From positions 1 through 64,000 of the forward strand of contig VGHA01000005.1 in assembly GCA_016868375.1 (NCBI GenBank): a stretch of 64,000 bases of DNA, written 5' to 3'. The notes under the pieces were generated by a model that ran no database searches, had not been told where the DNA came from, and was given only the letters and a program-made list of their open reading frames with translations. This document shows, one piece after another, positions 9,597 through 57,263 of the stretch (positions are counted from its first letter, which is position 1; every line of letters starts with the position of its first letter). Origin of the DNA: Betaproteobacteria bacterium. GTDB taxonomy: Bacteria > Pseudomonadota > Gammaproteobacteria > Burkholderiales > Burkholderiaceae_E. The position numbers were made by a program, and so were the translations under genes.

Positions 9597-10571
9597 ATGC
9601 ATCCGATGCTCAACACAGCGGTTCGGGCCGCTCGGCAGGCCGGCCGTATCATCAACCGGGCCAGCCTCGACCTTGACACGCTGGCGGTGGCCCGCAAACA
9701 GCGCAACGATTTCGTGACCGAAGTCGATCGCGCATCAGAAGAAGCCATCATCGAGGTACTTCGCACCGCGTACCCAAGTCATTCTATCCTCGCCGAAGAG
9801 TCAGGCCACGACCCCAAAGGCAACAAAGGGCATCCGCGCGAAGCCGAAAACATCTGGATCATCGATCCGCTGGATGGCACCACCAACTTCATCCACGGCT
9901 TTCCGCAGTACGCCGTGTCCATTGCGCTCATGCAGAAGGGCGTGGTCACCCAGGCTGTGGTGTACGACCCGTCGCGCGACGAACTGTTCACCGCCACCCG
10001 AGGGCGCGGCGCCTACCTGAACGGGCGGCGAATCCGGGTCTCCAAGCGCCTGCGGATCGAAGAGTCGCTGATTGGTACGGGCTTTCCCTTCCGAAAACTC
10101 GACATGCTCGATGGCTACCTCGCGATGATGCGGGTGGTGATGGAGCGCGCGGCGGGTCTGCGCCGGCCAGGCGCGGCAGCCCTGGACCTCGCCTATGTCG
10201 CAGCGGGGCGGCTCGACGGTTTCTTCGAGTTGGGGCTTGCGCCCTGGGATGCCGCGGCAGGAAGCCTGCTGATCACCGAAGCGGGCGGCATGGTGGGCAA
10301 CTTCGGCGCCGAAGGCGATTACCTGTTTTCCGAGCAGATCGTGGCCGGCACACCGAAGGTGTTTGCCAACCTGATCGCGCTGCTGCACCGCCACGTCGTT
10401 GCCGCCGAGGTAGCCGTGACGGCGGCAGCAGCCAAACCCGCGGCCACGGCGGCTGCAGCACCTGCCGCTGAGCGTCCAACCGACGATGCAAGGCGCGACC
10501 CCAACCGCCGCGCCATTCGACCGATTCGTAAGCGCGCCGACGCCGAATCAGGCGGCGGGCAAAGCGCCTAA
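9597..10571 (+). CDS. suhB: Inositol monophosphatase family protein with Ala-rich C-terminal extension
   Basis: 324 aa; [37 protein letters not shown]-terminal [47 protein letters not shown]. Confidence 0.92.
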
Positions 10572-11129
10572 GCGAATCCACCACTGCCTGAACGACTCAA
10601 CCAGCGGTCGCTCCACCCGAAGCTCGATCAGGCGAAGCGTCGGGTCGGTGGTGGCGCCCTCAATGCCCGCATCAAACAGGACCGCTGCGAAGGGGCCGAA
10701 GCGGGTGGCGATACAGGCCCCATCAAGTACCTCGGTGCCCACCGGCCCAGCGCGTTCAAACAGGTCGCGCAATGCGGACTCAGGCCCGCTCAGTAAAAGC
10801 ACGCCCCACGCATCACTGATCACAGTCACCATGGCGTTCACGGCGGCGCATGCGAGGTTGAGCTGCTGCTGAATTGCATGCTCGTGATCAGCGGGGCCAT
10901 CGATCAGCCAGACACCAGGCGCAGTGGACCACCACCGTACCTTGCCCCCTGAATGAAGTTTCAGCGGCGCTGAGCGCCACGGAACGCCCAGCGCCTCGCC
11001 AATCCAGCGGCTGTCCGAGGCCGGGTTCATTCGCACCGACAGCAATGCCCGCGCGGCAGGCGTCTCGAGGCGAACTGTTCCACCTTCGCAGCGCACCGCA
11101 CGGCCGGCAAGCGCGTCGGATTCAGCCAC
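10548..11129 (-). CDS. soxG: Sarcosine oxidase gamma subunit
   Basis: GTG at 11129 preferred (overlaps end of soxA); position after soxA in a canonical soxBDAG order; [37 protein letters not shown]. Confidence 0.75.
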
Positions 11130-14100
11130 GCATCCTCCCACCCTGTGTGTCGTAAAAGATTGGAGCGACCACCCGCGCTGCGCGCAGCACAAGGCCTTTG
11201 ACCAGGGCCTCGGGCGGCACCGCATCGCCCGGTGCGCCCGCCTGCGGCAGACTGCCGCTGACACGAAGCGGCTGCGACTGCGTCACCTGCAAGGTTTCAC
11301 CGATTTTCGCGCGACCGTCCTCGATCAGGGCCAGTGCGATGGGGCGGCCTGCAGCCTCGCTCTGTACGCTTGCGGTCACCAGTCCAATGGACCGACACTG
11401 CCCTGCAACCAGCCGTGCCTTGCTGGCCAACACCTGAGCGCCCTCCTCGAAGGGTCGACCTTCGTCCAGGCACTCCAGGCCCACCAGCTGCCGACGGCCC
11501 GCTGGCATCAACCGATCACGCTCCAGCGAGCGGCGACCAATAAACTCGGGCTTGTCCCAGTGCACCGCCCAGCCCATGCCGAGGTCCTCGGGGTTGGTGT
11601 CGCCATCGACTTCGTGACCCAATGAGATGAATCCCTTTTCAATGCGCAGTACGTGGTTGGCTTCCGAGCCCACCGGCTCAATGCCGAGATCGGCACCGGC
11701 CGCCATGACCGCTTTCCACAACGCAAGGCCGCGCGAGGCGGGCACGCAGATTTCGTAGCTGAGTTCGCCGGTAAAGCTCACCCGGAAAACGCGCGCGTCG
11801 ATGCCGGCCACGGTGAATGACTGCCAGCGCATGAAGCCGAAAGTCGCTGCGGATAAGCCTGCCCGAGCATTGGGTTCGAGCAGCCTCGAGAAAAGCTCGC
11901 GCGCCCGTGGTCCGCAGATGACGATATCGGCCCAGTGCGATCCGACCGGTTCGATCATGACCTGAAGCCGCCCGCCAAACAGCCATTGACGCGCGTACTC
12001 GAGCCAGCTCGCCATTGCATCCGCATTGCCGGCGGTACTGCTCAGCCAATACCGCGCTGTATCCAGCCGGAACACCGTGCCATCGTCAAAAATGCGGCCA
12101 TCGTCCCGCAAGGCAAGCGCATAACGGCCGCGCCCCGGCAGCAGATCAGAGACCCGGCAGGCGAGCACATGCTCAAGAAACGCCGCCGTATCCGGCCCGC
12201 CAATTTCGAACTTGCCTAGTGGCGTGCTGTCATACACACCTACTGCCTGACGAACCGCGCGGCACTCGCGGCGAACCGCGTCATCCATGGATTCGCCAGC
12301 GCGCGGGTAATAGCCTGGCCGTCTCCAGTTGGCGCCCGATTCATAGAGCACCGCACCGTGGTCGCGATGCCAACCCGTGACCGGCGTCTCGCGCGTGGGC
12401 CGAATCAGCGGCCCGGGATCACTGCCCGCCAGCGTTCCGAACGCGACCGGCGCGAAGGGCGGTCGGGCGCGGGTGGGTGGTAACGATTCAGGATCACGGC
12501 CCTCGAGTTCGGCAAGGCGCAGAAGGCCATCGACCCCTGCCGACCGGCCCTGATCGGGCCCCATGCCAAGCGTGGTGTAGCGCTTAAGCAGTTCGGTTGC
12601 CGTGTAGCCCTCGCGCGCGGCCAGCATGATGTCGGACACGGTGACATCGCCGGCCAGGTCAACAAACACCCGGTCGGGTGCAAGCGCCGCCTGCGCCGCG
12701 CGATTCGAATGGGTAGGCGACGAGGGCCTGGCTGTCGGTGGCGTTGCGGCGGACGGGCTGCCAGCCAGCCGCTGAAGGAGCGTATCGGCCGCCTGCCGAC
12801 CGCTCGCGACGCAGTCATCGGTGGACACTGCCCCGGCCGCCGCGCCGGCCAGCACCGGCGTCTGCTCACTTGCTTCGCCACGAAGCGCATCCCGCGTGCG
12901 GTCATACCGGGCAACGCCCCCGGCCTGAACATAGAGTTGCAGCGCGGGGTTCCATCCCCCTGATATCGCCAGGCAGTCGCAGGGCAACATCTCAGTGGAT
13001 CCCCCGGCATTCACCGCCACCTCAGACAGGCCATGCCGCCCGCCCCGCGCCCGCAGCAAGTGGCCTTCGATCAGTGCAACGCCACGACTGCGCGCGGCCT
13101 CAACGAGCGAGGCTGGCGCTGCCGCGAGCGTCGGCGATACGATGGCCAAGACCGTCATCCCGGCATCCTGCGCCTCCCAGGCGAGCGACCAGTCGGTAGC
13201 GTCCCGCGTGGCAAGCACCATCTGCCGACCCGGGGCCACCGCGTGACGATGCAGCGCGGATCGCACCGCACTGGCCATCATCACACCCGGCACATCATTG
13301 TTTTCGAATGGCAGACCGCGCTCGAAGGCACCGGTGGCGAGGCACACCGCCTTGACCCGCATCATCCACAGGCACTCTCGCGCCCAGCCATCGCGCTCCA
13401 GCGCAAGCGCCTGGCCATGATCATGCAGACCCAATACCACCGTGCTGCGCAATCGACGCAGAGTCGGTTCAGCACCCCAGCGATCGGCCTCGCGACGAAT
13501 CGCATCGATCGCCGCACGATCAGCGCTCTCAGCGCTCGCGCCCAGGATCCCGCCAGGGCGGCTGCGGTCATCGGCCCAGATGACGGAGCACCCTGCAGCA
13601 AGCAGCCGCGCCACGGCTGCCGACCCGGCTGGGCCTGCGCCCACCACCAGCACATCGGCCTGCGCATGACGTCGCTCGACCACGGGGCCACCGGCACGGC
13701 GCGGCGCGCGCCCCAACCCGGCGGCTCGCCGGATCAGCGATTCATAGAGCGGCCAGGCGCGACCGGGCCACTTGAAGGTCTTGTAGTAAAACCCCGCCGG
13801 GAGCAGCGCGTGCAGCCAGTTGGCGAGCGCCCCCACGTCCCACTCGATGTTGGGCCAGCCGTGCATGCCGCGCGCCACGAGCCCCTCGGCCAATGGTGCC
13901 CGCGTGGCAAGCAGATTGGGTTCTTCCCAGGGCTCGAGCAGCTGCACAAACGCGTTCGGGTCATCCCAGCCCTCAGCGCGTAGGCCCCGACGCCGATGCA
14001 GCTTGAAGCTGCGCGCCACGGTGCGAATGCCGTTGGCGAGCAGGGCCGAGGCCAGCGTATCGCCCTCGAAGCCCTGGAGCACCCGGTCATCGAACCTGAA

Positions 14101-14169
14101 TTGAAGCGGCCGCGACCGATCAATATCGGTACCGCCCTGATTCAGCCTGAAGCATCCGCCCTCCATCAT
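11122..14169 (-). CDS. soxA: Sarcosine oxidase alpha subunit
   Basis: N-terminal FRFDDRVLQGFEGDTLASALLANG, DVLVVGAGPAGSAAVARLL, C-terminal GcvT-like domain (GSHWADIVICGPRARELFSRLL); start at 14169 preferred over ORF start 14280. Confidence 0.93.
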   Translation of the reverse strand: MMEGGCFRLNQGGTDIDRSRPLQFRFDDRVLQGFEGDTLASALLANGIRTVARSFKLHRRRGLRAEGWDDPNAFVQLLEPWEEPNLLATRAPLAEGLVARGMHGWPNIEWDVGALANWLHALLPAGFYYKTFKWPGRAWPLYESLIRRAAGLGRAPRRAGGPVVERRHAQADVLVVGAGPAGSAAVARLLAAGCSVIWADDRSRPGGILGASAESADRAAIDAIRREADRWGAEPTLRRLRSTVVLGLHDHGQALALERDGWARECLWMMRVKAVCLATGAFERGLPFENNDVPGVMMASAVRSALHRHAVAPGRQMVLATRDATDWSLAWEAQDAGMTVLAIVSPTLAAAPASLVEAARSRGVALIEGHLLRARGGRHGLSEVAVNAGGSTEMLPCDCLAISGGWNPALQLYVQAGGVARYDRTRDALRGEASEQTPVLAGAAAGAVSTDDCVASGRQAADTLLQRLAGSPSAATPPTARPSSPTHSNRAAQAALAPDRVFVDLAGDVTVSDIMLAAREGYTATELLKRYTTLGMGPDQGRSAGVDGLLRLAELEGRDPESLPPTRARPPFAPVAFGTLAGSDPGPLIRPTRETPVTGWHRDHGAVLYESGANWRRPGYYPRAGESMDDAVRRECRAVRQAVGVYDSTPLGKFEIGGPDTAAFLEHVLACRVSDLLPGRGRYALALRDDGRIFDDGTVFRLDTARYWLSSTAGNADAMASWLEYARQWLFGGRLQVMIEPVGSHWADIVICGPRARELFSRLLEPNARAGLSAATFGFMRWQSFTVAGIDARVFRVSFTGELSYEICVPASRGLALWKAVMAAGADLGIEPVGSEANHVLRIEKGFISLGHEVDGDTNPEDLGMGWAVHWDKPEFIGRRSLERDRLMPAGRRQLVGLECLDEGRPFEEGAQVLASKARLVAGQCRSIGLVTASVQSEAAGRPIALALIEDGRAKIGETLQVTQSQPLRVSGSLPQAGAPGDAVPPEALVKGLVLRAARVVAPIFYDTQGGRMRG

Positions 14170-14450
14170 TGGGGCGCTCCGGCAAACCGGATCGCGCCCA
14201 CCTGATGCGTCACGGTGTTGCGCTCGACCAGCAACCACTGGCGGCATCCGGATGCATGCCACCAGAGCTCGACACTCCATCCCGCAGGGTTGCTGCGCTG
14301 GTAAAGCACCTCCGCCCAGGCCGCTTCATCCAGCTCAGCAGGATTAGCCGGGCGTGCCGTTGCATCACCGGCGCACTGAAACTCGGTTTCCGGACGATCG
14401 CCGCAAAAGGGGCATTGAAGTCTGAGCATCGTATGACGCGAGTCGGTCAA
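14166..14450 (-). CDS. soxD: Sarcosine oxidase delta subunit
   Basis: 94 aa; CPFCGDRPETEFQCAGDA Zn-ribbon start; located between soxB and soxA with 4-bp overlaps. Confidence 0.92.
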   Translation of the reverse strand: MTDSRHTMLRLQCPFCGDRPETEFQCAGDATARPANPAELDEAAWAEVLYQRSNPAGWSVELWWHASGCRQWLLVERNTVTHQVGAIRFAGAPQ

Positions 14451-15691
14451 AAGCGGTTCGAGGCGCTGGCTGTTTCAAACAGCAGGCGTCCCGTGCGAAA
14501 GCGCGCCAGTGAAAACGGGCGGATCCAGTCATCGGGTTCGTCCGTTGCGATCAGGCGCGCGAAACTGCGCCCGCCAGCAGGAATTGATTTGAAGCCACCC
14601 GACCCCCATCCCGTGCTGACGAACAGTCCCTTGACCGGCGTATCGGACACGATGGGGGTGGTGTCGATCGACAGGTCAATTGCGCCCGCCCACTGGCGGA
14701 GCAGCTTGATCCTTGCAAACGAAGGAAAGAGTTCAAGCATCGAGGCCACCGTGTCGAGCACCACCTGCGGCGTTCCCCGCTGGGCGTACGACCCATAGCC
14801 GTCGGCCCCGCCGCCAATCACAAGTTCGCCTTTGTCGGACTGGCTGAGATACACCGCGAGCGCTGGGGCGGTAACAACCACATCGAGAACAGGCTTAAGC
14901 GGCTCGGATACGAACGCCTGCAGCGCGACGGTTTCAATGGGAAGCTTGAGACCGGCCAGCGCAGCGAGCCGGCCCGAATTGCCGGCGACCGCGAGACCGA
15001 CGCGCGAGGTCACGATATTGCCTCGCGAAGTACGAACGCCGCGAACCCCGCCCTCGGCACAATCAATGCCCGTGACTTCGCAGCCCTCGACAATGTCCAC
15101 GCCGGCATCGCTGGCCGCGCGCGCGTAGCCCCAGGCCACCGCATCATGACGCACCGTACCGGCACGTCCCTGCCAGGCCCCGCCCAGAATCGGCAGCCGC
15201 ATGGCCGGATCGCGGTTGAGCATCGGCAGCATTCGATAGCACTGATCGACGGTCAGCAGCTCATAGTCGGCCCCCACCATGCGCATCGTGTGCAGGCGCC
15301 GCCTGGAGTCGCGCAGCTTGCCCCAGGTTTGCAGCAGTTCGATCTGCCCCCGGTGGCTCACCATCAGGTTGAAGTCGAGCCGCGCCGACAGGTCGGTCCA
15401 GAGCCTGAGGTTTTCGTCCTGAAACCGGATGGCCTGCTCGCGAAGATAATTCGAGCGAATGACCGTGGTGTTTCGGCCAGTGTTGCCCGACCCGATCCAG
15501 CCCCGCTCAAGCACCGCCACCCGCAGGCCGTGTTCGCGTGCGAGATGCCAGGCGGTAGCAAGTCCGTGCCCCCCACCGCCCACCATGACCGCGTCATAAA
15601 CCGGCGACGGCTCGGCCGCCTTCCAGGCGCGCGGCCACCCCGAATGGCCACGCAGGGCTTGGCTGATCAGATTGAAGATCGAGTAACGCAT
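14447..15691 (-). CDS. soxB: Sarcosine oxidase beta subunit
   Basis: MRYSIFNLISQALRGHSGWPRAW, DAVMVGGGGHGLATAWHLAREHG (FAD), STGWGSGGFKSIPAGG; internal ATG 15691 of a longer ORF. Confidence 0.93.
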   Translation of the reverse strand: MRYSIFNLISQALRGHSGWPRAWKAAEPSPVYDAVMVGGGGHGLATAWHLAREHGLRVAVLERGWIGSGNTGRNTTVIRSNYLREQAIRFQDENLRLWTDLSARLDFNLMVSHRGQIELLQTWGKLRDSRRRLHTMRMVGADYELLTVDQCYRMLPMLNRDPAMRLPILGGAWQGRAGTVRHDAVAWGYARAASDAGVDIVEGCEVTGIDCAEGGVRGVRTSRGNIVTSRVGLAVAGNSGRLAALAGLKLPIETVALQAFVSEPLKPVLDVVVTAPALAVYLSQSDKGELVIGGGADGYGSYAQRGTPQVVLDTVASMLELFPSFARIKLLRQWAGAIDLSIDTTPIVSDTPVKGLFVSTGWGSGGFKSIPAGGRSFARLIATDEPDDWIRPFSLARFRTGRLLFETASASNRF

Positions 15692-15799: not shown

Positions 15800-16594
15800 A
15801 TGAAAGCCTTCCGGATTCTGGTCGCGCTTGCCGCCACCAGCCTCGCATTGTTTTCCGCGCCCAGTCAGGCGCAGGCGCCGGGCAAGTCGCGGCTGCAGAC
15901 CGTGCTCGAGCGCGGCACGGTGCGCGTGGGCACCACCGGCGATTTCAACCCGATGTCCATTCGCGACCCGGCCACCAACAGCTATCGCGGCTTCGACATC
16001 GAAGCCATGGAGCAGTTCGCCAAGGACCTGGGCGTGAAAATCGAATGGGTCCCGGCAGAGTGGGCCACGCTGGTGGCGGGCATTACCGCTAACCGTTATG
16101 ACATCTTCTCGGGCGCGTCGCTCAACATGGCGCGGGCCAAAACCGTTGCGTTCTCCGACCCCTACACCGAGGCGGGCACAGTGCCGCTGGTGCAGAAGTC
16201 TGACGCAGCCAAGTACAAGGGCTGGGCAGATCTGAACCAGTCGGGCACGGTGGTGGCAGTCCTGCTTGGCACCGTGTTTGAAGAGCAGGCCAAGGCCCAC
16301 TTCCCGCAGGCCCGGGTGCGCTCGGTTGAGAAGCCCGCCACCGGCTACCAAGAAGTTCTGGCGGGCCGCGCGCAAGCCACCATCACCAGCAACGTCGAAG
16401 CGGCCACGCTGGTCAAGCAGTTCCCGAATCTGACGATCGTGGGCGGCGCCGAGCTGCGCAACAAGCGTCCGTTTGCATATCCGCTGCCGCAGGGCGATGC
16501 GGTGTGGACCACCTACGTGAACAACTGGATCGCACTCAAGAAGTCCGAGGGCTTTTTCAAGGCTCTTGAAGCCAAGTGGCTCGGCGGGCAGTAA
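15800..16594 (+). CDS. Amino-acid-type ABC transporter substrate-binding protein (SBP family 3)
   Basis: 264 aa; signal peptide to AQA; LERGTVRVGTTGDFNPMSIRDPATNSYRGFDIEAMEQFAKDLGVKIEWV, YDIFSGASLNMARAKTVAFSDPY. Confidence 0.85.
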   Translation: MKAFRILVALAATSLALFSAPSQAQAPGKSRLQTVLERGTVRVGTTGDFNPMSIRDPATNSYRGFDIEAMEQFAKDLGVKIEWVPAEWATLVAGITANRYDIFSGASLNMARAKTVAFSDPYTEAGTVPLVQKSDAAKYKGWADLNQSGTVVAVLLGTVFEEQAKAHFPQARVRSVEKPATGYQEVLAGRAQATITSNVEAATLVKQFPNLTIVGGAELRNKRPFAYPLPQGDAVWTTYVNNWIALKKSEGFFKALEAKWLGGQ

Positions 16595-17343
16595 TCCTCG
16601 CCAGCTGCGCAGTCCTGCCGCTTCTTCTGCTGGCAGGCTGCGCATCCAACTCTGGGGGCTACACCTGGGGTTGGTACATCTTCAATCCGTTGTCGGCCAA
16701 AGGACTGGGCAACATCCAGTTCATGGCCGCCGGATTGGGTCTTACCGTGGCGCTGGCCGTCTGCGCCATCGTGCTGTCGGTGGCCATCGGTGTCACGATG
16801 GCCCTGGCAGGCATGTCATCGTCGCGACTGCTTCGAGGCAGCGCGCGAACCTACGTCGAGTGCCTGCGGTCCATTCCGCTGCTGGTCCTGCTGTTGTGGG
16901 TTTATTACGGCTTGCCTGTCATCACCGGCTTGCAGTTCACTGCTTTCACCGCAGGCGTGTTGTCGCTCGCACTGTCTGATTCCGCATTCGAAGCCGAAGT
17001 TTTCAGGGCTGGCATCCAGTCGGTGGCCAAGGGCCAGCGCGAGGCAGCGCGGTCGCTGGGGCTATCCAGTTGGAACACCTTTCGGCTGGTGGTGTTTCCC
17101 CAGGCAATTCGCACCATTCTTCCGGCACTTGGCAACCAGTTTGTCTACGTTCTCAAGATGAGCTCGCTGGTGTCGGTAATCGGGCTGCAGGAACTGACCC
17201 GCCGGGCCAACGAACTCAATGTCACCGAATATCGACCGCTCGAGATCTACACGATGCTGGTGCTCGAATATCTGGTGCTGATACTGATCACCTCCTGGGG
17301 CGTGCGCGCGCTTGAGCGCCGGATGTCGCGCCACCAGCACTGA
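16576..17343 (+). CDS. Amino-acid-type ABC transporter permease with lipobox-like N-terminus
   Basis: 255 aa; ARTYVECLRSIPLLVLLLWVYYGLP, EVFRAGIQSVAKGQREAARSLGLSSWNTFRLVVFPQAIRTILPALGNQFVYVLKMSSLVSVIG; N-terminus LPLLLLAGCASNSGG; GTG start overlaps SBP. Confidence 0.88.
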   Translation: MARRAVILASCAVLPLLLLAGCASNSGGYTWGWYIFNPLSAKGLGNIQFMAAGLGLTVALAVCAIVLSVAIGVTMALAGMSSSRLLRGSARTYVECLRSIPLLVLLLWVYYGLPVITGLQFTAFTAGVLSLALSDSAFEAEVFRAGIQSVAKGQREAARSLGLSSWNTFRLVVFPQAIRTILPALGNQFVYVLKMSSLVSVIGLQELTRRANELNVTEYRPLEIYTMLVLEYLVLILITSWGVRALERRMSRHQH

Positions 17344-17374
17344 GTCACCGAGCAGCCAGCCAGGGTCGATCGAG

Positions 17375-18160
17375 ATGCAGCTTGCCCTTAGCACCTCAGC
17401 GCAAGTCGAACACTACCTGCAGCGTTCGAAGTCGATCGTCATTCCGTTAGGCTCCACCGAGCAACACGGGCCGATCGGCCTGATTGGCACCGACACCTTG
17501 TGCGCGCAAACCATCGCCGCGCGCCTGGGCGCGCATCGCGGAGTGTTGGTTGCGCCTGCGTTGTCGCTCACGGTCGCGCAGTTCAATCGTGGCTTTGCCG
17601 GAACCCTCACGGTTCGCGCGAGCACCCTGCTTGCGCTGATTCTCGATGTCCTGCACTCGCTGGCAGACCAGGGGTTCCAGCGAATCTATCTGCTCAATGG
17701 GCACGGCGCCAACATCGCAGTGGCGCGCGCCGCCTGTCAGGATTTTTATCTGGAACGCGGGCGAATGGCGGGCGCAGTCCCCCATTGCCGACTGCGCAGC
17801 TGGTGGGAGTATCCCGAGGTTGATCGACTGCGACGCGCCTGGTACGGATCGCTCGAGGGGTTGCACGCCACACCCAGTGAAGTGGCCATCGTGATGGCCG
17901 CCGAACCCGAGCACAGCGCGCGCGCAAGGCGGGAAGGCGAAGCGCTCGCGGCCGATGCGCCCGCCCCGCTGAGCGCAGCGTTTCTGCGCGACCACGGCGG
18001 CGACAACCACTTTGACGCGGCCTCTCATCGGGCCGCATTTCCGGATGGCCGTGTTGGCTCGCACTCGATCCTTGCTACCCGCGAACACGGCGAGGCACTG
18101 ATTGCCGCGGCGGTGGCTGATGCGGCACGCGATCTGGCGGCCTTCGAAGCGGAGCAATGA
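17375..18160 (+). CDS. Creatininase-family (creatinine amidohydrolase-like) protein
   Basis: IVIPLGSTEQHGPIGLIGTDTL, YLLNGHGANIAVARAA, ATPSEVAIVMA; ATG at 17375. Confidence 0.88.
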   Translation: MQLALSTSAQVEHYLQRSKSIVIPLGSTEQHGPIGLIGTDTLCAQTIAARLGAHRGVLVAPALSLTVAQFNRGFAGTLTVRASTLLALILDVLHSLADQGFQRIYLLNGHGANIAVARAACQDFYLERGRMAGAVPHCRLRSWWEYPEVDRLRRAWYGSLEGLHATPSEVAIVMAAEPEHSARARREGEALAADAPAPLSAAFLRDHGGDNHFDAASHRAAFPDGRVGSHSILATREHGEALIAAAVADAARDLAAFEAEQ

Positions 18161-18161
18161 G

Positions 18162-18818
18162 ATGCTGATCCTGTACGGTGTGCCGGTGTCCACCTTCACC
18201 ACCAAGGTTCGCATCGCGTTGCATGCGAAGGGCGTCGACTTTTTCGAACAGCCCCCGCCTGGCGGTTATCGATCTGACACATGGCGGGCGATCATCCCCA
18301 CCGGTACCATCCCCGCCATTGACCATGATGGTTTCATGCTGGCTGAATCGGAAGCGATCATCGAATACGTGGACGAGGCCTTGACCGGCCCGCCGCTACT
18401 ACCCGGCGATGCGCAGACGCGCGCCCGCGCCCGGATGCTCGCTCGCGTTCATGATCTTGCGGTCGAGCCCGCCATTCGTGCGCTGTTTCCCCTGATTCGT
18501 GACCCGGCCAAGCGCGATGCGCTGCCCGCACTGGACAATGCGCTGCAGGACCGTCTGGCTCAACTCGAGCGCCTGCGCGGTGCTGATGCGGCCTGGATGG
18601 CTGGCCCCGATTTCAGCACTGCTGACTGTGGCTTCGCGGTGTCCCTTCCCCTGGCGCGAAGGCTGCTCGAGGCCCTGGGTCGACCGCTTGCGATGCCCGC
18701 CTCTCTTGAAGGCTGGCTCGAGCGCAGCACACACCATGCTGCCGTGGCCGCGGGGCTCGCGCCATGGCGCCCGGCCACTGAAGCCTGGCTTGCCCAGGCC
18801 ATGGGAGCGCAATCGTGA
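18162..18818 (+). CDS. Glutathione S-transferase family protein
   Basis: MLILYGVPVSTFTTKVRIALHAKGVDFFE...PTGTIPAIDHDGFMLAESEAIIEYVDEAL. Confidence 0.87.
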   Translation: MLILYGVPVSTFTTKVRIALHAKGVDFFEQPPPGGYRSDTWRAIIPTGTIPAIDHDGFMLAESEAIIEYVDEALTGPPLLPGDAQTRARARMLARVHDLAVEPAIRALFPLIRDPAKRDALPALDNALQDRLAQLERLRGADAAWMAGPDFSTADCGFAVSLPLARRLLEALGRPLAMPASLEGWLERSTHHAAVAAGLAPWRPATEAWLAQAMGAQS

Positions 18819-19429
18819 GCACACATCCGAAGGCCAGTCCGCTGTTGAAGCCCGACTGGCGTTATGTCGAAAAGATTTCGCTTGAAGATTTCACCCGGGG
18901 CGACTGGGCGCTTCTCAACGCGCAGCGCTCGCAGTACTACGCCGAGGAGCAGGCGCGGCAGGTGCTGCGCATGCTGGCAGACTCCGAGCACGACACCACC
19001 TTCGGCTATCAGGTGAACAACTATCGCCACAGCCTGCAGTCGGCCACGATGGCGCACCGCGACGGGCTCGACGAGGAAGACGTGGTGGTGGCACTGCTGC
19101 ACGACATCGGCTTCATCGCCTGCCCGCAGCGACACGGCGAGTTTGCAGCCGCGTTGCTGGGCGCCTATGTCAGCGAGCGAAACGAGTGGATGCTAAGACG
19201 CCACGCGATCTTTCAGGACGTCCACGCCCACCACCATCCTGATGTCGATCCGAATGCGCGAGAGCGTTGGCGTGGACACCCGCACTTTGAGTGGGCGGCC
19301 ACCTTCGTTGCGCGCTACGACCAGGCCACTGTCGACCCGGGTTATGAGTGCGCACCGCTCAGCTTTTTCGAACCCATGGTGGCCCGCATCTTTGCGCGCC
19401 CGCAGCGGCGAGCGCCGATGCCTGACTGA
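18815..19429 (+). CDS. HD-domain protein resembling PhnZ/TmpB-type HD mixed-valent diiron oxygenases
   Basis: 204 aa; NNYRHSLQSATMAHRDGLDEEDVVVALLHDIG, RRHAIFQDVHAHHH, FVARYDQATVD (His...HD...H...H...D pattern with HxLQxAxxA). Confidence 0.7.
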   Translation: MSTHPKASPLLKPDWRYVEKISLEDFTRGDWALLNAQRSQYYAEEQARQVLRMLADSEHDTTFGYQVNNYRHSLQSATMAHRDGLDEEDVVVALLHDIGFIACPQRHGEFAAALLGAYVSERNEWMLRRHAIFQDVHAHHHPDVDPNARERWRGHPHFEWAATFVARYDQATVDPGYECAPLSFFEPMVARIFARPQRRAPMPD

Positions 19430-19465
19430 CAAACCCATCAAGACTGATTCCCTGGAGCACTGCTG

Positions 19466-20047
19466 ATGTCCGCATGGATCCGAATGATTCCCCTGGAAGA
19501 GGCTGAGGGTTCACTCGCCTCGGCTTACCAGAAGGTACGCACGCCGCACGGTACGGTCGATAACGTGATGAAGGCACACAGCCTACGGCCGCACACCATG
19601 GAAGGCCATGTTTCGCTGTATCGAAGCGTGCTGCACAACCCCGACAACACGCTGCCTTTCTGGTATCTGGAAGTGGTGGCGTCCTATGTCAGCATGCTCA
19701 ACAACTGCGCCTACAGCCTGACCCACCATTGGTCGAACGCGCGCAGACTGATTCGCGATAAGGCGCGTTCTGATTCCATTCATGCAGCGCTGTCCGCGCG
19801 CGCGCCCCAGCAGGCGTTCGAAGGCAAAGAGCTTGAACTGCTGCGCTACGCGGGCAAGCTCACCACCAGCGTCGCCAACATGGCAAAGGCTGATATTGAT
19901 GCGCTGCATGCGGCAGGCTGCAATGACGGCGAAATTCTGGAAGTCAATCAGGTCTGCGCCTACTTCAATTACTCGAACCGACTGCTAAACGGGCTCGGCG
20001 TGACCACCGAGGGCGATGTGATCGGCTACTACAAGGAAGACGAATGA
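19466..20047 (+). CDS. AhpD/carboxymuconolactone-decarboxylase-like (peroxidase-related) protein
   Basis: 193 aa; MIPLEEAEGSLASAYQKV, EVVASYVSMLNNCAYSLTHHWSNARRL, DGEILEVNQVCAYFNYSNRLLNGLGV; second Cys of CxxC is Ser. Confidence 0.75.
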   Translation: MSAWIRMIPLEEAEGSLASAYQKVRTPHGTVDNVMKAHSLRPHTMEGHVSLYRSVLHNPDNTLPFWYLEVVASYVSMLNNCAYSLTHHWSNARRLIRDKARSDSIHAALSARAPQQAFEGKELELLRYAGKLTTSVANMAKADIDALHAAGCNDGEILEVNQVCAYFNYSNRLLNGLGVTTEGDVIGYYKEDE

Positions 20048-21021
20048 ACCGGCACAGTGCGCGCGTCGTATCGGTCGACGAAATTCCGGTCATTGATGTC
20101 TCGGGGCTGGTTGCCCCTGACCGTGCCACGCTCGAAACCGTGGGCGCTGAAATGCGTGAGGCGGCAGCGCGAATCGGCTTTTTCTATGTCAGCGGCCACG
20201 GCATTGCGCAGTCGCTCATCGATGAGGTCGACGCCGCCGCCCGGAGGTTCTTTGCCGCGCCACGGGCTGACAAGCTGTCCATCGAGCCAGTGGGCCGTCA
20301 CCGGGGCTACATCAAGCAGGGTGAGGCCAAGATGAGTGACCGCGCGCGGCCTGATCTGAAGGAAAGCTTCATCTGGGGGCTCGATGTTGGCGCAGACGAC
20401 CCCGATTTCATCGCCGCCAACCGGATGATCGGCCCCAATCGCTGGCCTGCGTTCATGCCGGAACTTCGCCCTCTGCTCAACCGTTACCTCGATGAAGCGC
20501 ACGCCTGTGCGAAGCGGCTGCTGCGTGCGCTCGCCGTCAGTCTTCATGCACCCGAAGACGCCTTCACGCGCAAATTCGACAAGCCCATTTCGCGAGGCTC
20601 TCTGGTGTACTACCCGCCGCAGCCGCCAGAACTTGGCGACCGTCAGTATGGGGTGGCACCGCACACTGACTACGGCGTCATCACGCTGCTCCACCAGGAT
20701 CCCGTGGGCGGACTGCAGGTAGCCACCCGCGGCGGTGAATGGGTCACCGCAACCCCCATTCCCGGCACGCTGGTCATCAACTCAGGCGACCTGATGGGAC
20801 GCTGGTCCAACGATGTGTTCAAGTCGAATCCGCATCGTGTCATCAACACATCGGGCCGCGAGCGGCTGTCGATCGCGGTGTTCGTCGACCCCGACTACGA
20901 CACGCCCATCGTGCCGGTCACCGAGCCGGGTGTGGTCGCCAGATACCCGGAAGTCAGCTGCGGCGAATACATCCTCGGGCGCTTTGACAAGGCATTTGAG
21001 TACCGCAAGCGCGCGGGCTGA
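20044..21021 (+). CDS. 2-oxoglutarate/Fe(II) oxygenase, isopenicillin-N-synthase-like family
   Basis: 325 aa; EIPVIDVSGL, VAPHTDYGVITLLHQDPVGGLQV, NSGDLMGRWSND, NPHRVINTSGRERLSIAVFVDPDYDT (HxD...H...RxS). Confidence 0.9.
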   Translation: MNRHSARVVSVDEIPVIDVSGLVAPDRATLETVGAEMREAAARIGFFYVSGHGIAQSLIDEVDAAARRFFAAPRADKLSIEPVGRHRGYIKQGEAKMSDRARPDLKESFIWGLDVGADDPDFIAANRMIGPNRWPAFMPELRPLLNRYLDEAHACAKRLLRALAVSLHAPEDAFTRKFDKPISRGSLVYYPPQPPELGDRQYGVAPHTDYGVITLLHQDPVGGLQVATRGGEWVTATPIPGTLVINSGDLMGRWSNDVFKSNPHRVINTSGRERLSIAVFVDPDYDTPIVPVTEPGVVARYPEVSCGEYILGRFDKAFEYRKRAG

Positions 21022-21088: not shown

Positions 21089-21506
21089 GTGCGGTCGGTC
21101 AATATTCACGAAGCGAAAACGCACCTGTCGCGGCTGGTCGAACTGGCTGCTGCGGGCAGCCGAAGGTGGCAGACGCATCCCGGGCAAACTGCGCAAGCTC
21201 ATCAGCAACGAAGAACATGCGCTCTTTTTCAGCGTGGCAAGCCTCTGGGAAATCGCCATCAAGGCAGGCCTGGGCCGTCCAGACTTCACGCTCGATGCCT
21301 CGGTCTTTCGCCGTCTTTTGATCGATAACGGCTACACCGAGATTGCCATCAGCGGCAGCCACGTAATCACCGCTAACAGCCTGCCACCGCTGCACCGCGA
21401 CCCGTTCGATCGGCTGCTAGTCGCGCAGGCCATCAGCGAGGGCTTCACGCTGCTGACTTCCGACCCCGCACTGGCCGGCTACCCGGGCGACATTGTCATC
21501 GCCTGA
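21089..21506 (+). pseudogene. Decayed toxin-antitoxin module: Phd/YefM-like antitoxin N-terminus abutting an N-terminally truncated PIN-domain (VapC-like) toxin in another frame
   Basis: Frame 2: MRSVNIHEAKTHLSRLVELAAAGS (antitoxin start); frame 3: PGKLRKLISNEEHALFFSVASLWEIAIKAGLGRPDF...LPPLHRDPFDRLLVAQAISEGFTLLTSD (PIN C-terminal two thirds); no LLLDTH-type N-terminal motif. Confidence 0.75.
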
Positions 21507-28737: not shown

Positions 28738-29232
28738 CTAGAGCAGGAAGGCGATGCCGGGCAGTTCAGCTTCGGAGTTGATCAGGTCGACGCGTTTGTC
28801 AGCAATCTGCCAGTGCCCCTGGTGTTGCCGCAGACGATGTTCGACGAGCGCCGCCCAGGTGCGCTGCTGCTCGAGCCGGTATTCAAGCAACACGAGCGCT
28901 GAAGCGACCCACGTGGCGGTGTCCGTGTGCTCGAGAATTTGCACGTTGCTGACCTGGTGCACGGTGCGCGCCAGCGGCCGCCGCGCATGCGCACGCGGAT
29001 GCGTGATCTGGCGAACCCGAAGTTCGAGCAGCGTGCGGTCGTCATAGATGATGGACGAGGTGTTGAGCGGATCCGCCTGCCCCTGCTCAAGCGGTACCCA
29101 GTAATGAGCATCGTCTGCAAAGAGCGCAAGCCAGTCTTCAAAACAGTGCGTATCAAGCAGCCGCGCCTCGTGATAGAGAAAGGCGCGCACGCTTTCGCCG
29201 AGCGCGTGCAAGGAGTCAGTTGAGCCGGTCAT
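28738..29232 (-). CDS. Aromatic-ring-hydroxylating dioxygenase beta subunit
   Basis: 164 aa; FLYHEARLLDTHCFEDWLALFADDAHYWVPLE, RITHPRAHARRPLARTVHQVSNVQI-type SnoaL-like fold; adjacent to alpha subunit. Confidence 0.88.
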   Translation of the reverse strand: MTGSTDSLHALGESVRAFLYHEARLLDTHCFEDWLALFADDAHYWVPLEQGQADPLNTSSIIYDDRTLLELRVRQITHPRAHARRPLARTVHQVSNVQILEHTDTATWVASALVLLEYRLEQQRTWAALVEHRLRQHQGHWQIADKRVDLINSEAELPGIAFLL

Positions 29233-30563
29233 GCCATGTCCTCCGCCGACTCAGCACACATATAGCGCAGCCACGCATCGAACTGCCTGCGAATGAAGAT
29301 TTCACTGGTACCCGTGCCGCCTCGAAGCAGCTCGCCGTCCGGCACATCAGTGCCGACACCCCGCGACAGGTTGACCCACTCGGGCTGCGCCGCCGACAGC
29401 CCCTGCTGCACCCGACCGTACACTTCCAGGTCGTCAGTGAGCACCCAGGATGCGGTGCCGTTGACCACATTGGAGAAGGCAACGGTGTCGCGAAACATCT
29501 GCTCGGGTGCACCCTTCAAGCGCAGGTTGTAGGTGTAGACAACGGTGCGGTTGACTGCCAGGGGATGAACAATTCGAAGCTGCCGGAACTGGCTCATGAA
29601 TGACACGTTGGGATACACGATCGTGTTCCAGCGGGTAACGCCCAGAATGCGCTGCGCCTCGTCGGCGCCCACCCGCTGCTCGAGCCGTTGGCGATAGTCG
29701 GCAAATACCGGGTTGTTCAGGCCCACCACCAGTCGGCCATCCGAGTGGTAGTCGCCCATGTAGCCGTGACCCCAATCACTGGTCCACATGCCAATCGCTT
29801 CCCAGACCGGCTGGGGCGCGCCGTTCTGGCGCATCTGGCGGATTGAAATGTCGGAGTATTTTTCTGGCTGACCCGGATCGGGTGCGTCGCGGGCCACATG
29901 CACCGACGAAATATGAACGTGGTTCGGATGCACACCGTCGAGGTGATTTTCAAGCACCAGCTTCCAGTTGCCCTCATAGGTGTGCTTGAATACGCCCCCG
30001 GCGACCTCAACCTCGCCATCAGGCGCGCGATCAACCAGGTCGTCGAACGAACTGGCAAGCGGCCCCAGAAAATCCGCGAGGCCAGGCCCGGATGACGCCA
30101 GGCTTGCAAAAATAAAGCCCCGGTAGAGATCGACGCGAGGCACGGCTCGCAGGCCCAACTCGGCAAAGCTTCGCTGCGGCTCGGCACCATAGCCCTGCGG
30201 CACCGGCACGCCGGTCAGTCGGCCGTCAAGTTCGAAGCCCCAACCGTGATACGGGCAGACAAAATGGCGCGAGTGCCCGCTGGCCTCGTGGCACACCAGC
30301 GCGCCCCGGTGAGTGCATCGATTGATCAGCACCCGCACCGAGCCCGACGCATCGCGCGACACGATGACCGGCAAACGCCCCATACGGGTGGTGAACCAGT
30401 CGCCGGGTCGTGCCACCTGTGAACTATGTCCCAGCAAAAGCCACGCGCGTCCGAAGATGCGATCGAGCTCGAGTTCGAACAACGCAGGGTCTGAGTAAAC
30501 CGAGTGGTGAACGCGGTCAGGGCGGACCAGCGATCGCAGGCCCTGCATATCGTGTTGAAGCAT
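29229..30563 (-). CDS. Rieske [2Fe-2S] aromatic-ring-hydroxylating dioxygenase alpha subunit
   Basis: Rieske motif NRCTHRGALVCHEASGHSRHFVCPYHGWGFELDG; ENHLDGVHPNHVH metal site; ATG 30563 (MLQHDMQGLRSLV) plausible, ORF opens at 30629. Confidence 0.92.
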   Translation of the reverse strand: MLQHDMQGLRSLVRPDRVHHSVYSDPALFELELDRIFGRAWLLLGHSSQVARPGDWFTTRMGRLPVIVSRDASGSVRVLINRCTHRGALVCHEASGHSRHFVCPYHGWGFELDGRLTGVPVPQGYGAEPQRSFAELGLRAVPRVDLYRGFIFASLASSGPGLADFLGPLASSFDDLVDRAPDGEVEVAGGVFKHTYEGNWKLVLENHLDGVHPNHVHISSVHVARDAPDPGQPEKYSDISIRQMRQNGAPQPVWEAIGMWTSDWGHGYMGDYHSDGRLVVGLNNPVFADYRQRLEQRVGADEAQRILGVTRWNTIVYPNVSFMSQFRQLRIVHPLAVNRTVVYTYNLRLKGAPEQMFRDTVAFSNVVNGTASWVLTDDLEVYGRVQQGLSAAQPEWVNLSRGVGTDVPDGELLRGGTGTSEIFIRRQFDAWLRYMCAESAEDMA

Positions 30564-49883: not shown

Positions 49884-51167
49884 ATGACACGTGAACCCCA
49901 TTCCCTCACCGCCTCCGAGGCCGCCGCAGCCATCGAATCGGGCAGTCTGAGCGCCGAATCTCTGGTGCGCAGCTGCCTCGAACGCATCGACGCCCGCGAG
50001 CCTCAGGTGCATGCCTGGGTGCATCTCGATCGTGACGCAGCCATCGCCGCCGCCCGGCGCGCTGATGCAGGGCCGCGATCCGGCCTGCTTCACGGCATTC
50101 CCGTCGGCTTCAAAGATGTGATCGACACTGCCGATCAGCCCACGGCTTACGGGTCGCCGATTTACACCGGTCATCGGCCCGTGACCGACGCAGCCTGCGT
50201 TGCGCTCACACGCGAGGCCGGTGCGCTGGTCCTGGGCAAAACCGCTTCCACCGAATTCGCCTATCGCCATCCCAGCACCTGCACCAACCCACACAATCCC
50301 GCGCACTCCCCCGGCGGGTCATCTTCGGGGTCGGCGGCTGCAGTGGCCGACCTGATGGTGCCCCTCTCGGTTGGGACGCAAACCAGCGGGTCGGTCATCC
50401 GACCTGCCTCCTACTGTGGCGTTCACGCAATCAAGCCCGGCTACGGCGAACTGAGTTTCTCAGGCGTGAGGCATCTGGCGGAAAGTCTTGACACCCTGGG
50501 CTGCATGGCGCGCAGCATCGAAGATCTGGCGCTTTTCATGGCGGGGCTTCAAATGCGCGACTACCGCCGCGTTGGCGACGGATTGCAGCGCGCGCCGAGA
50601 CTCGCTGTCTACCGCAGCGAGCTGTGGGAAGACGCCCAGCCCGATGCCCGTCAACGGTTCGACGAGGCGCTGCAGACGCTCGCCCGCGCTGGCGCCGAAC
50701 TGACCGAAATCACCAACCCCGGCCTCGATCGCAAGCTGCTGGACGCAATCTGGCTGGCCACCAAATTTGAGGCAGGCCGCGTGCTGGTGCGCGAATATCG
50801 ACATCACCGCGAGTCGATGTCAGCGCCCGCGCAGGCGCTGGTTGGCGATGCCCGGGCCATTGGCCTTGACGCCTATCATGCCGCCAGCAACGAGATGGAA
50901 CGCGGCCGCAATCACCTGCTCGCGCAGCTCGCACCGTTTGATGCAACCCTCACCCTGTCGGCCGTGGGCGAGGCGCCGCTTGGGTTGCATGACACGGGCC
51001 CCGTTCTGTTCAACTATCTCTGGACCCTTGCCTGGACACCGGCGCTCAATCTGCCGGTGATGCGTGGCAACAGCGGCCTGCCGGTCGGCCTTCAAGTGGT
51101 CGGCGCACGACACGGCGAGCAGGCCCTGCTCGCCACGGGCCGCTGGATCGAGCGGCAGCTTGCCTGA
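49884..51167 (+). CDS. Amidase (amidase signature family)
   Basis: 427 aa; LVLGKTASTEFAYRHP, SPGGSSSGSAAAVADLMVPLSVGTQTSGSVIRPASYCGV. Confidence 0.93.
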   Translation: MTREPHSLTASEAAAAIESGSLSAESLVRSCLERIDAREPQVHAWVHLDRDAAIAAARRADAGPRSGLLHGIPVGFKDVIDTADQPTAYGSPIYTGHRPVTDAACVALTREAGALVLGKTASTEFAYRHPSTCTNPHNPAHSPGGSSSGSAAAVADLMVPLSVGTQTSGSVIRPASYCGVHAIKPGYGELSFSGVRHLAESLDTLGCMARSIEDLALFMAGLQMRDYRRVGDGLQRAPRLAVYRSELWEDAQPDARQRFDEALQTLARAGAELTEITNPGLDRKLLDAIWLATKFEAGRVLVREYRHHRESMSAPAQALVGDARAIGLDAYHAASNEMERGRNHLLAQLAPFDATLTLSAVGEAPLGLHDTGPVLFNYLWTLAWTPALNLPVMRGNSGLPVGLQVVGARHGEQALLATGRWIERQLA

Positions 51168-51176
51168 GGACACCCC

Positions 51177-52166
51177 ATGAACGATCTCAGCCGTCCCGCC
51201 GTCCCGTTAATGTTTGAAGACGCCATCGCCAAACCGCTCGCGTGGATCCGCGATGAGGTGAGCGAAAGCGATTGGCGCGTTCCGGTCCCTGCCGAAGCGC
51301 TGGCCGAAATTGATCAGGTCATCGACATCCTGCGCGCAAATCCTATGGACATTCGCGCTCTGTGTCCGGACGACTATCCGCTTGAAGCCTGCCGCGCGTT
51401 GATGGACAGGGTTCGCCATCAGCTTGATCACGGCATCGGCATGGTGGTGCTTGACCGGATGGCCGTTGAGCGCCACGACAAGGAGTCGCTCACAGCCATT
51501 TACTGGATGCTGTCGTCGATGATTTCGCGGCCGGTCGCTCAGTCGTACGACGGCCGACTGCTTTACGACGTGCGCGATACCGGTAAAAAGACCGACACGC
51601 GGGTACGCGCTGATCTGACAAATCAGGAAATCTCCTGGCATAGCGACTACGGCTTCAATTTTCCGCCGCCCTATCTGGGGCTTCTGGTGCTCCGAACGGC
51701 GCGCTCAGGGGGCATCAGCAAGGCAGCCAGCATGATGACCGTGCACAACGATCTGCGTGAAAAGCGTCCAGATCTGCTGCGCCGGCTCTATGAGCCCTTT
51801 CACTGGAACCGTCAGGGCGAGCATCCGGAAGGCGCGCCCGTCACGCATTTTTTTCCGATCTTCCAATGCCATGATGGGGTGGTGCGCTCGCGATTCAATC
51901 CGGCCCTGGTGCCCAAGGGCTACGAGCTGGTGGGTCTTCAACCGGACGCGCTGGGCCTGGAAGCACTGCGCGAGGCCGGCAAAATCATGTCAGACGAGCG
52001 CAATCACATTACCTTTGTGCTGAAGCCAGGTGAAATCCAGTACGTCAACAACTTCCGACTCGCCCATCTTCGCACCGACTATGACGACTACGATGAGCCC
52101 GACCGCAAACGCCATCTGGTGCGAATCTTTCTTCGCGACTTTGGCAGGCGTTCCTACATGGGCTAA
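51177..52166 (+). CDS. TauD/TfdA-family Fe(II)/2OG dioxygenase-like protein
   Basis: 329 aa; QEISWHSDYGFNFPPPYLGLLVLRTARSGG, PGEIQYVNNFRLAHLRTDYDDYDEPDRKRHLVRIFLR. Confidence 0.82.
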   Translation: MNDLSRPAVPLMFEDAIAKPLAWIRDEVSESDWRVPVPAEALAEIDQVIDILRANPMDIRALCPDDYPLEACRALMDRVRHQLDHGIGMVVLDRMAVERHDKESLTAIYWMLSSMISRPVAQSYDGRLLYDVRDTGKKTDTRVRADLTNQEISWHSDYGFNFPPPYLGLLVLRTARSGGISKAASMMTVHNDLREKRPDLLRRLYEPFHWNRQGEHPEGAPVTHFFPIFQCHDGVVRSRFNPALVPKGYELVGLQPDALGLEALREAGKIMSDERNHITFVLKPGEIQYVNNFRLAHLRTDYDDYDEPDRKRHLVRIFLRDFGRRSYMG

Positions 52167-52178
52167 CTGGAGCACCCG

Positions 52179-53117
52179 ATGACTACATTGATCAGTCCGC
52201 AGACGCGCGGCGTTTTTATCATCGCGGCGACGCCCTTCACTGACGCGGGCGAGGTCGACTATGAAAGCATAGACACCCTCACCGACTTTTACCTCAGCTT
52301 TGGCATCGATGGCCTCACGATTCTCGGCATCATGGGCGAAGCTCAAAAGCTCTCGGCCGAGGAGTCGCTTGCAGTCATGCGCAGGTATCTGGCGCGCGTC
52401 GCCGGACGCATTCCAGTGATCGTCGGGGTCACGGCCCCCGCTTATGACCCGATGGTCTCGCTCGCACGCGCATCGATGCAAGAGGGGGCGGCAGGCGTGA
52501 TGATTGCGCCACCGGCAAACGTCAAGACCGACGAGCAGTTTTTCAATTTCTTCTCGGGAGCCTGCCGGGCACTCGGACCGGAGGTGCCGGTTTGCCTGCA
52601 GGATTATCCGGCTGTAACCGGCGCCTGGATGTCAGTGCCGGTCTTTGAGCGCATCGTGCGGGAACTGCCCCAGGTCGTGATGCTCAAGGCAGAGGATTGT
52701 CCAGGCCTTACCAAAATCTCCCGAATCCGGGCCCTTGAAGCCAAGGGCCTGCGACGCAGCGCCATTCTCGTGGGCAACAACGGATTGTTCTATCCGCTCG
52801 AGCTTGCACGGGGCGCCGATGGTCCGATGACAGGCGTGGCCTACCCCGAGATGCTCACCGAGGTCTATCGCGCCATGCAGGCTGGAAACCGAGACCTCGC
52901 GGACGATATCTTTGAGATCTATCTTCCGCTTGTTCGCTACGAGACCCAGGCTGGGGTGTCGCTTGCCTGGAGAAAAGAAATACTGCGTCGGCGTAAAGCC
53001 ATCCGCAGCGCCAAGGTAAGAGCGCCCGGCGCGCAACTCAACGCGGATGAACACGATGACCTCACCCGGATGATGGCGAGGATCGATTCGAAGCTTGCCG
53101 CACTCAAGCGCGCCTGA
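52179..53117 (+). CDS. Dihydrodipicolinate synthase (DapA)/NAL-family protein
   Basis: 312 aa; GVFIIAATPFTDAGEVDYESIDTLTDFYLSFGIDGLTILGIMGEAQKLS, VCLQDYPAVTG, VVMLKAEDCPG. Confidence 0.9.
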   Translation: MTTLISPQTRGVFIIAATPFTDAGEVDYESIDTLTDFYLSFGIDGLTILGIMGEAQKLSAEESLAVMRRYLARVAGRIPVIVGVTAPAYDPMVSLARASMQEGAAGVMIAPPANVKTDEQFFNFFSGACRALGPEVPVCLQDYPAVTGAWMSVPVFERIVRELPQVVMLKAEDCPGLTKISRIRALEAKGLRRSAILVGNNGLFYPLELARGADGPMTGVAYPEMLTEVYRAMQAGNRDLADDIFEIYLPLVRYETQAGVSLAWRKEILRRRKAIRSAKVRAPGAQLNADEHDDLTRMMARIDSKLAALKRA

Positions 53118-53150
53118 ACACGTCTTAACCGGCGCAACAGGGATTCGTTC

Positions 53151-55558: not shown

Positions 55559-55662
55559 CAGTCATACCGCACGGCCCGTCGCACTGATTTGGGGCGGCAT
55601 GCGGTTTGCTCACAGGTATAGAGCCCCGGCCACGATCTCGGCCAACTTTTTAGGAGACTGAA

Positions 55663-56508: not shown

Positions 56509-57260
56509 AGCCACCTTCCGGCGCGCAGCCCCTGCTTGAACTCCGGGGCTTGCGCAAAAGTTTTGGTGCAAGCGAAGTGGTGCGCGGGGTCGACCTTGCG
56601 GTTGTCCCGCGAGAACTTGTCTTCGTGATTGGCCCCTCGGGCTCAGGCAAGTCGACGCTGCTTCGCATGTGCAATCGGCTCGAAGAGCCTTCGGCTGGGG
56701 AAATCTGGTTCGAGGGACAGAACATCCTGGCCCCGGGCACCGATCTGAACGCGGTTCGACGCCGGATCGGCATGGTGTTTCAGTCCTTCAATCTCTATCC
56801 CCACCTCAATGCCCGAGACAATGTGGCGCTTGCGCTGATCCATGTGCTCAAGCAGCCGCGCGAAGAGGCGCATGCGCGGGCCGTCGAATCACTTCGTAAA
56901 GTAGGGCTCGGCGATCGGGGTGAGGCAAAGCCTGCCGAGCTTTCGGGCGGCCAGCAGCAGCGCGTGGCAATCGCTCGCGCGCTTGCGCTCGAGCCTGCCA
57001 TCGTGCTGTTCGACGAGCCGACCTCGGCGCTTGACCCCGAGCTTGTGGGCAGCGTGCTCGCAGTGCTCAGGGAGTTGCGATCTGCCGGTATGACGATGAT
57101 GGTGGTGAGTCATGAAATGGGCTTTGCCCGCGGCGCAGCCGATCGCGTGGTGTTCATGGAATCGGGTCGGATCCTGGCAGACGGTCCGCCCGAGACAATT
57201 TTTGGCGCAGGGGCGCCTCAGCGCATCCGCGAGTTTGTCGCAAGCGTCGAACACCGTTGA
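56499..57260 (+). CDS. Amino-acid-type ABC transporter ATP-binding protein
   Basis: 253 aa; Walker A GPSGSGKST, ELSGGQQQRVAIARAL, Walker B IVLFDEPTSALDPE. Confidence 0.96.
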   Translation: MSVKPPSGAQPLLELRGLRKSFGASEVVRGVDLAVVPRELVFVIGPSGSGKSTLLRMCNRLEEPSAGEIWFEGQNILAPGTDLNAVRRRIGMVFQSFNLYPHLNARDNVALALIHVLKQPREEAHARAVESLRKVGLGDRGEAKPAELSGGQQQRVAIARALALEPAIVLFDEPTSALDPELVGSVLAVLRELRSAGMTMMVVSHEMGFARGAADRVVFMESGRILADGPPETIFGAGAPQRIREFVASVEHR

Positions 57261-57263
57261 ACC

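Follow-up and report, generated by a model that had tools for sequence, protein, structure and literature searches.

The operon at positions 15800–21021 (+ strand) of the window, the 64,000 nucleotide stretch analysed here (positions 1 to 64,000 of contig VGHA01000005.1 in the 4.7 Mb Betaproteobacteria bacterium assembly GCA_016868375.1), encodes a substrate-binding protein (SBP), an ABC permease, a creatininase-fold amidohydrolase, a glutathione S-transferase (GST), an HD-domain protein, a carboxymuconolactone decarboxylase (CMD)/AhpD-like protein, and a 2-oxoglutarate (2OG)-Fe(II) oxygenase. It is divergent from soxBDAG-like genes for a heterotetrameric N-methyl amino acid oxidase. The cluster may serve to take up and aerobically degrade a small N-methylated zwitterion, a betaine-like nitrogen compound with a carboxyl group and possibly an N-methyl heteroaromatic acid, a reading given a probability of about 0.45. 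Conservation of the cluster is far above chance, and two slots of the pathway are shown to be filled by unrelated enzymes elsewhere, one by either the 2OG oxygenase or a VanA-type Rieske oxygenase and the other by either the HD protein or a NicX-like protein. This suggests one common pathway in which each of the two steps is an oxygenation. As modelled, the occupants of the HD slot point to a NicX-type role, ring or C-C cleaving, rather than to C-P cleavage. An earlier note on this DNA had proposed that the locus may be a new pathway with two oxygenases and a connection to N-methyl amine oxidation, and this broad idea is strengthened. No description of the cluster was found in the literature searched.

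Conservation of the cluster and its exchangeable slots

The cluster is kept, in reshuffled order, in Beta-, Alpha- and Gammaproteobacteria. Its members are found together in metagenome-assembled genomes (MAGs) of lake Comamonadaceae, in Roseomonas, in Telmatospirillum, and in other Alpha- and Gammaproteobacteria, the nearest named relatives coming from lake metagenomes such as the Lake Erken bins and the Comamonadaceae MAGs. In a set of 300 genomes from the order and 74 from the family, it occurs in the window's genus only, and the other Burkholderiales HD genes in this set, at 36–46% identity, have unrelated neighbours. Four congeners have GST-HD-CMD-2OG at 62–94% identity. The transporter, creatininase-fold and sox genes are in the same place in two of the four and partly on another contig in a third. 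The order in the Comamonadaceae MAGs is SBP, permease, ATPase (opposite strand), creatininase-fold gene, GST, HD and CMD, with soxBDA divergent in several, and an AMDase/Asp-Glu racemase-family gene (maleate isomerase superfamily) follows the cluster in two Comamonadaceae loci. Alpha- and gammaproteobacterial loci L143–L150 have HD with CMD and/or 2OG in shuffled order, while in Telmatospirillum (L150 and L265) the HD, SBP, permease, creatininase-fold, GST, 2OG, soxADB and CMD genes share one contig. The trio of HD, 2OG and creatininase-fold genes, on whose conservation the earlier note had made its proposal depend, is found again in further genera and classes.

A tree of 113 HD proteins (LG+G4, by a quick method without bootstrap) places the window sequence in a 25-row group with an SH-aLRT of 100 and a long stem (0.93). 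Nearly all members of this subclade carry FGYx[VI]NN..H and HDxGF. Seven more sequences, four of which are HD genes near soxBDA or MttB, join in the next larger set with strong support. Counted within the fetched stretches, and with locus L151 assigned to the subclade by tree position, the CMD gene is present at 20 of the 25 subclade loci and at none of 107 loci of other HD relatives. The corresponding counts are 18/25 and 0/107 for the creatininase-fold gene and 18/25 and 2–3/107 for the gene of a CDT-like SBP.

The CMD protein provides an independent anchor. A search with it identified 29 of 385 Alphaproteobacteria genomes, and the cluster-type ones all have the motif CxYS. Of 19 CxYS genomes, including that of the window, eight have an FGY-type HD protein, eight have an unannotated protein with no Pfam match (here protein X), none have both, and three, all of one genus, have neither. 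X-type genomes L267, L269, L271 and L272 have CMD with the 2OG, permease, ATPase, SBP, GST and creatininase-fold genes. In named roseobacters, among them Ruegeria and Leisingera, and in Paracoccus seriniphilus, X is accompanied by CMD(CxYS), a VanA-type Rieske oxygenase and an amino acid importer, and often also by soxBDA. The top match for the model of X is the 2,5-dihydroxypyridine dioxygenase NicX (7cn3, E 6e-14), followed by M29 aminopeptidases. The 2OG slot is likewise filled in other loci by a VanA-type Rieske oxygenase adjoining HD or X. Four loci have histidine-utilisation (hut) genes adjoining the CMD(CxYS) cluster or close to it, L143 (11110–14336), L272 (12634–17659), L273 (4146–7371) and L278 (19849–25038). 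Such genes were also noted on a Leisingera plasmid, so that there may be a link to histidine degradation.

Fold and subgroup of the HD protein

The HD protein (18815–19429, + strand) has a weak Pfam HD match. Its top NCBIfam matches are Phn-HD and TmpB, far under the cut-offs (TIGR03276, 33 bits against 215; NF049941, 32 against 300; NF052439, 23 against 300), and PhnZ is its top PDB sequence match. For a structural model built from a 21-sequence alignment (pLDDT 89.8), Foldseek ranks 1–10 are all TmpB or PhnZ (E 3.5e-5 to 1.8e-4, probability 1.00) and MIOX is at rank 14 (probability 0.98); this comparison gave no convincing hydrolase match, other HD hydrolases reaching probabilities of ≤0.63. 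The positions H72, H96, D97, H107, H130 and D169 are invariant in 21 diverse and 16 subclade sequences. Judged by modelled fold and these six ligand positions, the protein is likely to be a member of the HD oxygenases, with a predicted mixed-valent diiron oxygenase fold, and belongs to the FGY/HDxGF subclade. The description of a PhnZ/TmpB-like protein in the earlier note therefore holds: the metal-ligand positions are kept, and the model matches TmpB/PhnZ and then MIOX, not the nucleotidohydrolase-type HD proteins. 

Most HD-domain proteins are hydrolases (PMC8177086), and many relatives in the broad clade (Burkholderiales, Pelagibacteraceae) have no oxygenase neighbour. The window protein could on this basis be a nucleotide or phosphoester hydrolase with a housekeeping or signalling function, merely co-regulated with the catabolic genes. 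This is distinctly improbable, however, given the six-ligand HD...H...H...D pattern, the fold match to HD oxygenases only, and the exclusive replacement by a dioxygenase-fold protein.

The YxxE loop, which is Y24/E27 in PhnZ and Y30/E33 in TmpB (PMC8177086), aligns in a profile alignment with T62 F63 G64 Y65. The His after HDxG in PhnZ and TmpB (HDLGH, HDIGH) is Phe in the window's protein (HDIGF), this residue being F or Y in its subclade and D in most other HD relatives. Because both the YxxE loop and the HDxGH histidine are missing, membership in the aminophosphonate subgroup fails, and the residues make an aminophosphonate substrate unlikely. An aminophosphonate-type substrate, of the kind that the earlier note had listed among compounds to assay, is thus not upheld, with TFGY standing in place of the amino-group-binding loop. 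In such a pathway the 2OG enzyme would hydroxylate N-methyl-2-aminoethylphosphonate, and the HD protein would split the product into sarcosine and phosphate. The PhnZ/TmpB fold with its six ligands, the adjacent soxBDAG and the two-oxygenase logic are all in keeping with it, yet no phosphonate genes were seen within the cluster, the amidohydrolase, GST, CMD and amino acid type importer fit poorly, and a NicX-like protein takes the HD slot elsewhere. It is considered very improbable.

In Gammaproteobacteria and Gemmatimonadota, HD genes of the wider clade directly adjoin 2OG oxygenases of the GBBH/TauD and PhyH types, which is the arrangement expected for a hydroxylase-then-HD pair, as in PhnY/PhnZ and TmpA/TmpB. 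On the Pseudomonas aeruginosa plasmid pF045_1 (L075, 6881–12838), a broad-clade HD gene lies between a TauD/TfdA-type dioxygenase and choline genes (choline binding protein, choline dehydrogenase, aldehyde dehydrogenase), another unstudied HD and 2OG pair. A same-strand gammaproteobacterial run (L109, 451–13505) has soxA, soxD, soxB, a dimethylglycine-dehydrogenase-like gene, HD and a GBBH-like 2OG oxygenase, together with a MetF-like gene and another whose product has RACo (corrinoid activase) domains. HD is followed by sterol-desaturase-family and ketopantoate-hydroxymethyltransferase-family genes on a Phaeobacter inhibens plasmid (L077, 7977–10459). Two Rhodospirillales MAGs have aminotransferase and sulfopyruvate-decarboxylase-like alpha/beta genes near HD (L150, 11885–14105; L153, 4368–5446 and 8615–9688).

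Proposed pathway and the other genes

The most likely steps and their order are drawn from the families and the replacements. The SBP and permease would import the substrate, which the 2OG enzyme would hydroxylate. Next, the HD protein would act as a mixed-valent diiron oxygenase and use O2 to break a C-C bond in the hydroxylated intermediate, a step that in the sister form would fall to the NicX-fold dioxygenase. Isomerisation and hydrolysis of the opened product would be the task of the GST, the creatininase-fold amidohydrolase and the CMD-like protein with CxYS, and SoxBDAG would oxidise the resulting N-methyl amino acid, with transfer of the C1 unit to tetrahydrofolate.

A more specific version, tentative and on the doubtful side, has an N-methyl heteroaromatic acid first hydroxylated and its ring then cleaved oxidatively by the HD oxygenase, which would stand in for a NicX-type Fe(II) dioxygenase without being its orthologue, in an undescribed pathway ending in N-demethylation by SoxBDAG. 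Homarine (N-methylpicolinate) is no more than a candidate substrate, as is any other N-methyl heteroaromatic acid. The substrate might instead have no ring, with a 2OG or Rieske enzyme hydroxylating or demethylating a quaternary amine of betaine or carnitine type and the HD protein cleaving an acyclic C-C or C-N bond. The sister HD group and its relatives are found near soxBDA, dimethylglycine dehydrogenase, an MttB-type methyltransferase, choline/betaine binding proteins and GBBH-like 2OG oxygenases, and a GbcA-like Rieske gene precedes HD in L143, all of which would suit an open-chain substrate. The maleylacetoacetate-isomerase-like GST, the CMD-like protein, the NicX-like replacement and the AMDase-type neighbours, however, resemble ring-cleavage chemistry, and the open-chain pathway is rather unlikely.

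Several observations weigh against the breakdown pathway as proposed. In the fourth congener (G330), GST-HD-CMD-2OG stands alone between a suhB-like gene and ligA, and the genome has no soxB, no creatininase-fold gene and no transporter genes adjoining the cluster. The import step, the isomerisation and hydrolysis step, and the final oxidation are therefore not obligate, and sarcosine, expected earlier as the product, is not supported as an obligate one. At several Comamonadaceae loci that carry HD and CMD, no 2OG gene adjoins them; only in some is it beside CMD. The exclusivity of HD and X among the 19 genomes has a hypergeometric probability of 0.002, uncorrected for phylogeny, and the match between X and NicX comes from a moderate model (pLDDT 67.5, TM ~0.5) of a fold that also includes M29 aminopeptidases. 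Ligands 1–3 of the HD protein are confirmed by alignment to PhnZ/TmpB, with ligands 4–6 assigned from invariance.

The seven + strand genes, described earlier as closely spaced or overlapping and divergent from soxBDAG, were all found as such, with intergenic spacing of -19 to +36 bp. The SBP (SBP_bac_3, 15800–16594) is periplasmic and, among solved structures, nearest to the cyclohexadienyl-dehydratase-like SBP 5kkw/5wjp, the 5kkw entry presumably containing a sulfobetaine ligand. The permease (16576–17343) is of the polar amino acid type (EhuC/GlnP-like). The window's cluster has no ABC ATPase gene, which relatives have between the permease and creatininase genes. The GST (18162–18818) is weakly maleylacetoacetate-isomerase-like. 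The CMD/AhpD-like protein (19466–20047) departs from the AhpD site E-x11-C-x2-C-x3-H in having E-x11-C-x2-S-x3-H, the second Cys being Ser in 20 of 20 aligned cluster members. CxYS, replacing CxxC, is present in 19/19 cluster-type genomes and homologues outside the cluster have CxYC; by these residues, the protein is a cluster-specific CxYS variant. A peroxidase role was set aside because the second Cys is missing. The 2OG protein (20044–21021; DIOX_N + 2OG-FeII_Oxy) has the full HxD...H triad (H207, D209, H264) and RxS (R274, S276), invariant in 12 homologues. These motifs make it a 2OG oxygenase, so that the earlier assignment stands as to 2OG-Fe(II) oxygenase but not as to isopenicillin N synthase (IPNS) type.

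The creatininase-fold protein (17375–18160) has invariant EQHG, D41, H111 and EGxHxTPSE. It scores 82.5 bits against the TIGR04448 equivalog cut-off of 235, and its nearest structure, 3no4 (deposited as creatinine amidohydrolase), gives 178 bits compared with 40 for characterised creatininases. The gene noted earlier is confirmed in its Pfam family and its place; by score and nearest structure, its product would belong to a 3no4-like subfamily and not be a true creatininase. Conversion of creatinine, creatine or N-methylhydantoin to sarcosine by this enzyme is scarcely probable. The Pfam family, the adjacent sarcosine oxidase and a hydantoinase-like gene beside the Telmatospirillum cluster could be cited for it, but the enzyme is far under the cut-off and groups with 3no4, the cluster has no creatinase, two oxygenases, CMD and GST are left without a role, and the gene is absent in G330.

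The sox unit is on the - strand, with soxB starting at ~15685, ~115 bp from the divergent operon, followed by soxD, soxA and soxG. The soxB-like FAD subunit (14447–15685) is above its family cut-off (TIGR01373, 552 bits against 529), with the soxD-like (14166–14429; 101 against 116.5) and soxA-like (11122–14169; TIGR01372, 946 against 1164) subunits below theirs. The C-terminal half of the latter is folate-binding (GcvT-like). The soxG-like subunit (10548–11129) is assigned by position and 52–56% identity in congeners. SoxBDAG may have an N-methylglutamate dehydrogenase-like function. The earlier link between the operon and sox genes is borne out elsewhere, soxBDA being a frequent neighbour of the cluster, of the sister HD group, and of X-type clusters in Ruegeria, Paracoccus and Leisingera thetidis. 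The Roseomonas cluster contains an N-methyltryptophan-oxidase-like gene.

A scan for promoters and terminators gave nothing above chance level. A small PIN-domain-like open reading frame (21234–21506) is just downstream of the operon, and a pair of small genes, antitoxin-like and PIN-like, occurs in another part of the region in congeners L064 and L065. Elsewhere in the window, alpha- and beta-like subunit genes of a Rieske ring-hydroxylating oxygenase adjoin an SDR gene (28738–30563), and a separate cluster resembling those for hydantoin/pyrimidine use (49884–59293) has amidase-, hydantoinase-, carbon-nitrogen-hydrolase- and racemase-like genes and a complete amino acid type ABC importer.

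Related systems and significance

In PhnY/PhnZ and TmpA/TmpB, too, a 2OG hydroxylase is paired with a small HD protein that shares the fold and the six-ligand diiron motif, and the TmpA/TmpB product enters betaine metabolism. Their 2OG partners are of PhyH or GBBH type, however, whereas that of the window is of DIOX_N type, and the cluster differs further in its CMD, GST, creatininase-fold enzyme and SoxBDAG, in an HD protein without YxxE and HDxGH, and in having no phosphonate genes. MIOX is an HD-fold diiron oxygenase that cleaves a C-C bond and has no YxxE loop, but it is a weak structural match with another residue after HDxG and other partners. In methylguanidine demethylation by MgdH/MgdL, 2OG hydroxylation is followed by cleavage by a dedicated second protein; MgdL, whose conserved residues are modelled within a beta-barrel, does not belong to the HD proteins (PMC12508155). 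An MgdL-like hemiaminal lyase was set aside because of the different fold. The sister cluster resembles the NicX nicotinate pathway in its NicX-fold protein in the HD slot and its oxygenase, isomerase-like and amidohydrolase partners. The differences are that the HD fold is unrelated to NicX, that the cluster has an N-methyl amine oxidase, and that no NicD or NicF homologue turned up, no search having been aimed at these.

To our knowledge, few HD-fold oxygenases are known, and those characterised biochemically act on inositol or phosphonates. If the ring-cleavage reading is true, this would be the first HD oxygenase known to us to act on a heterocycle. With this cluster, a distinct HD subclade is defined whose partners recur across three bacterial classes, and that subclade is given a testable step, the one that a NicX-fold enzyme may perform elsewhere. 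Since the sister form is present in cultured Ruegeria, Leisingera and Paracoccus, the pathway is open to laboratory testing. For methylated organic nitrogen in lakes and in the sea, the cluster marks a route that has probably not been described before.

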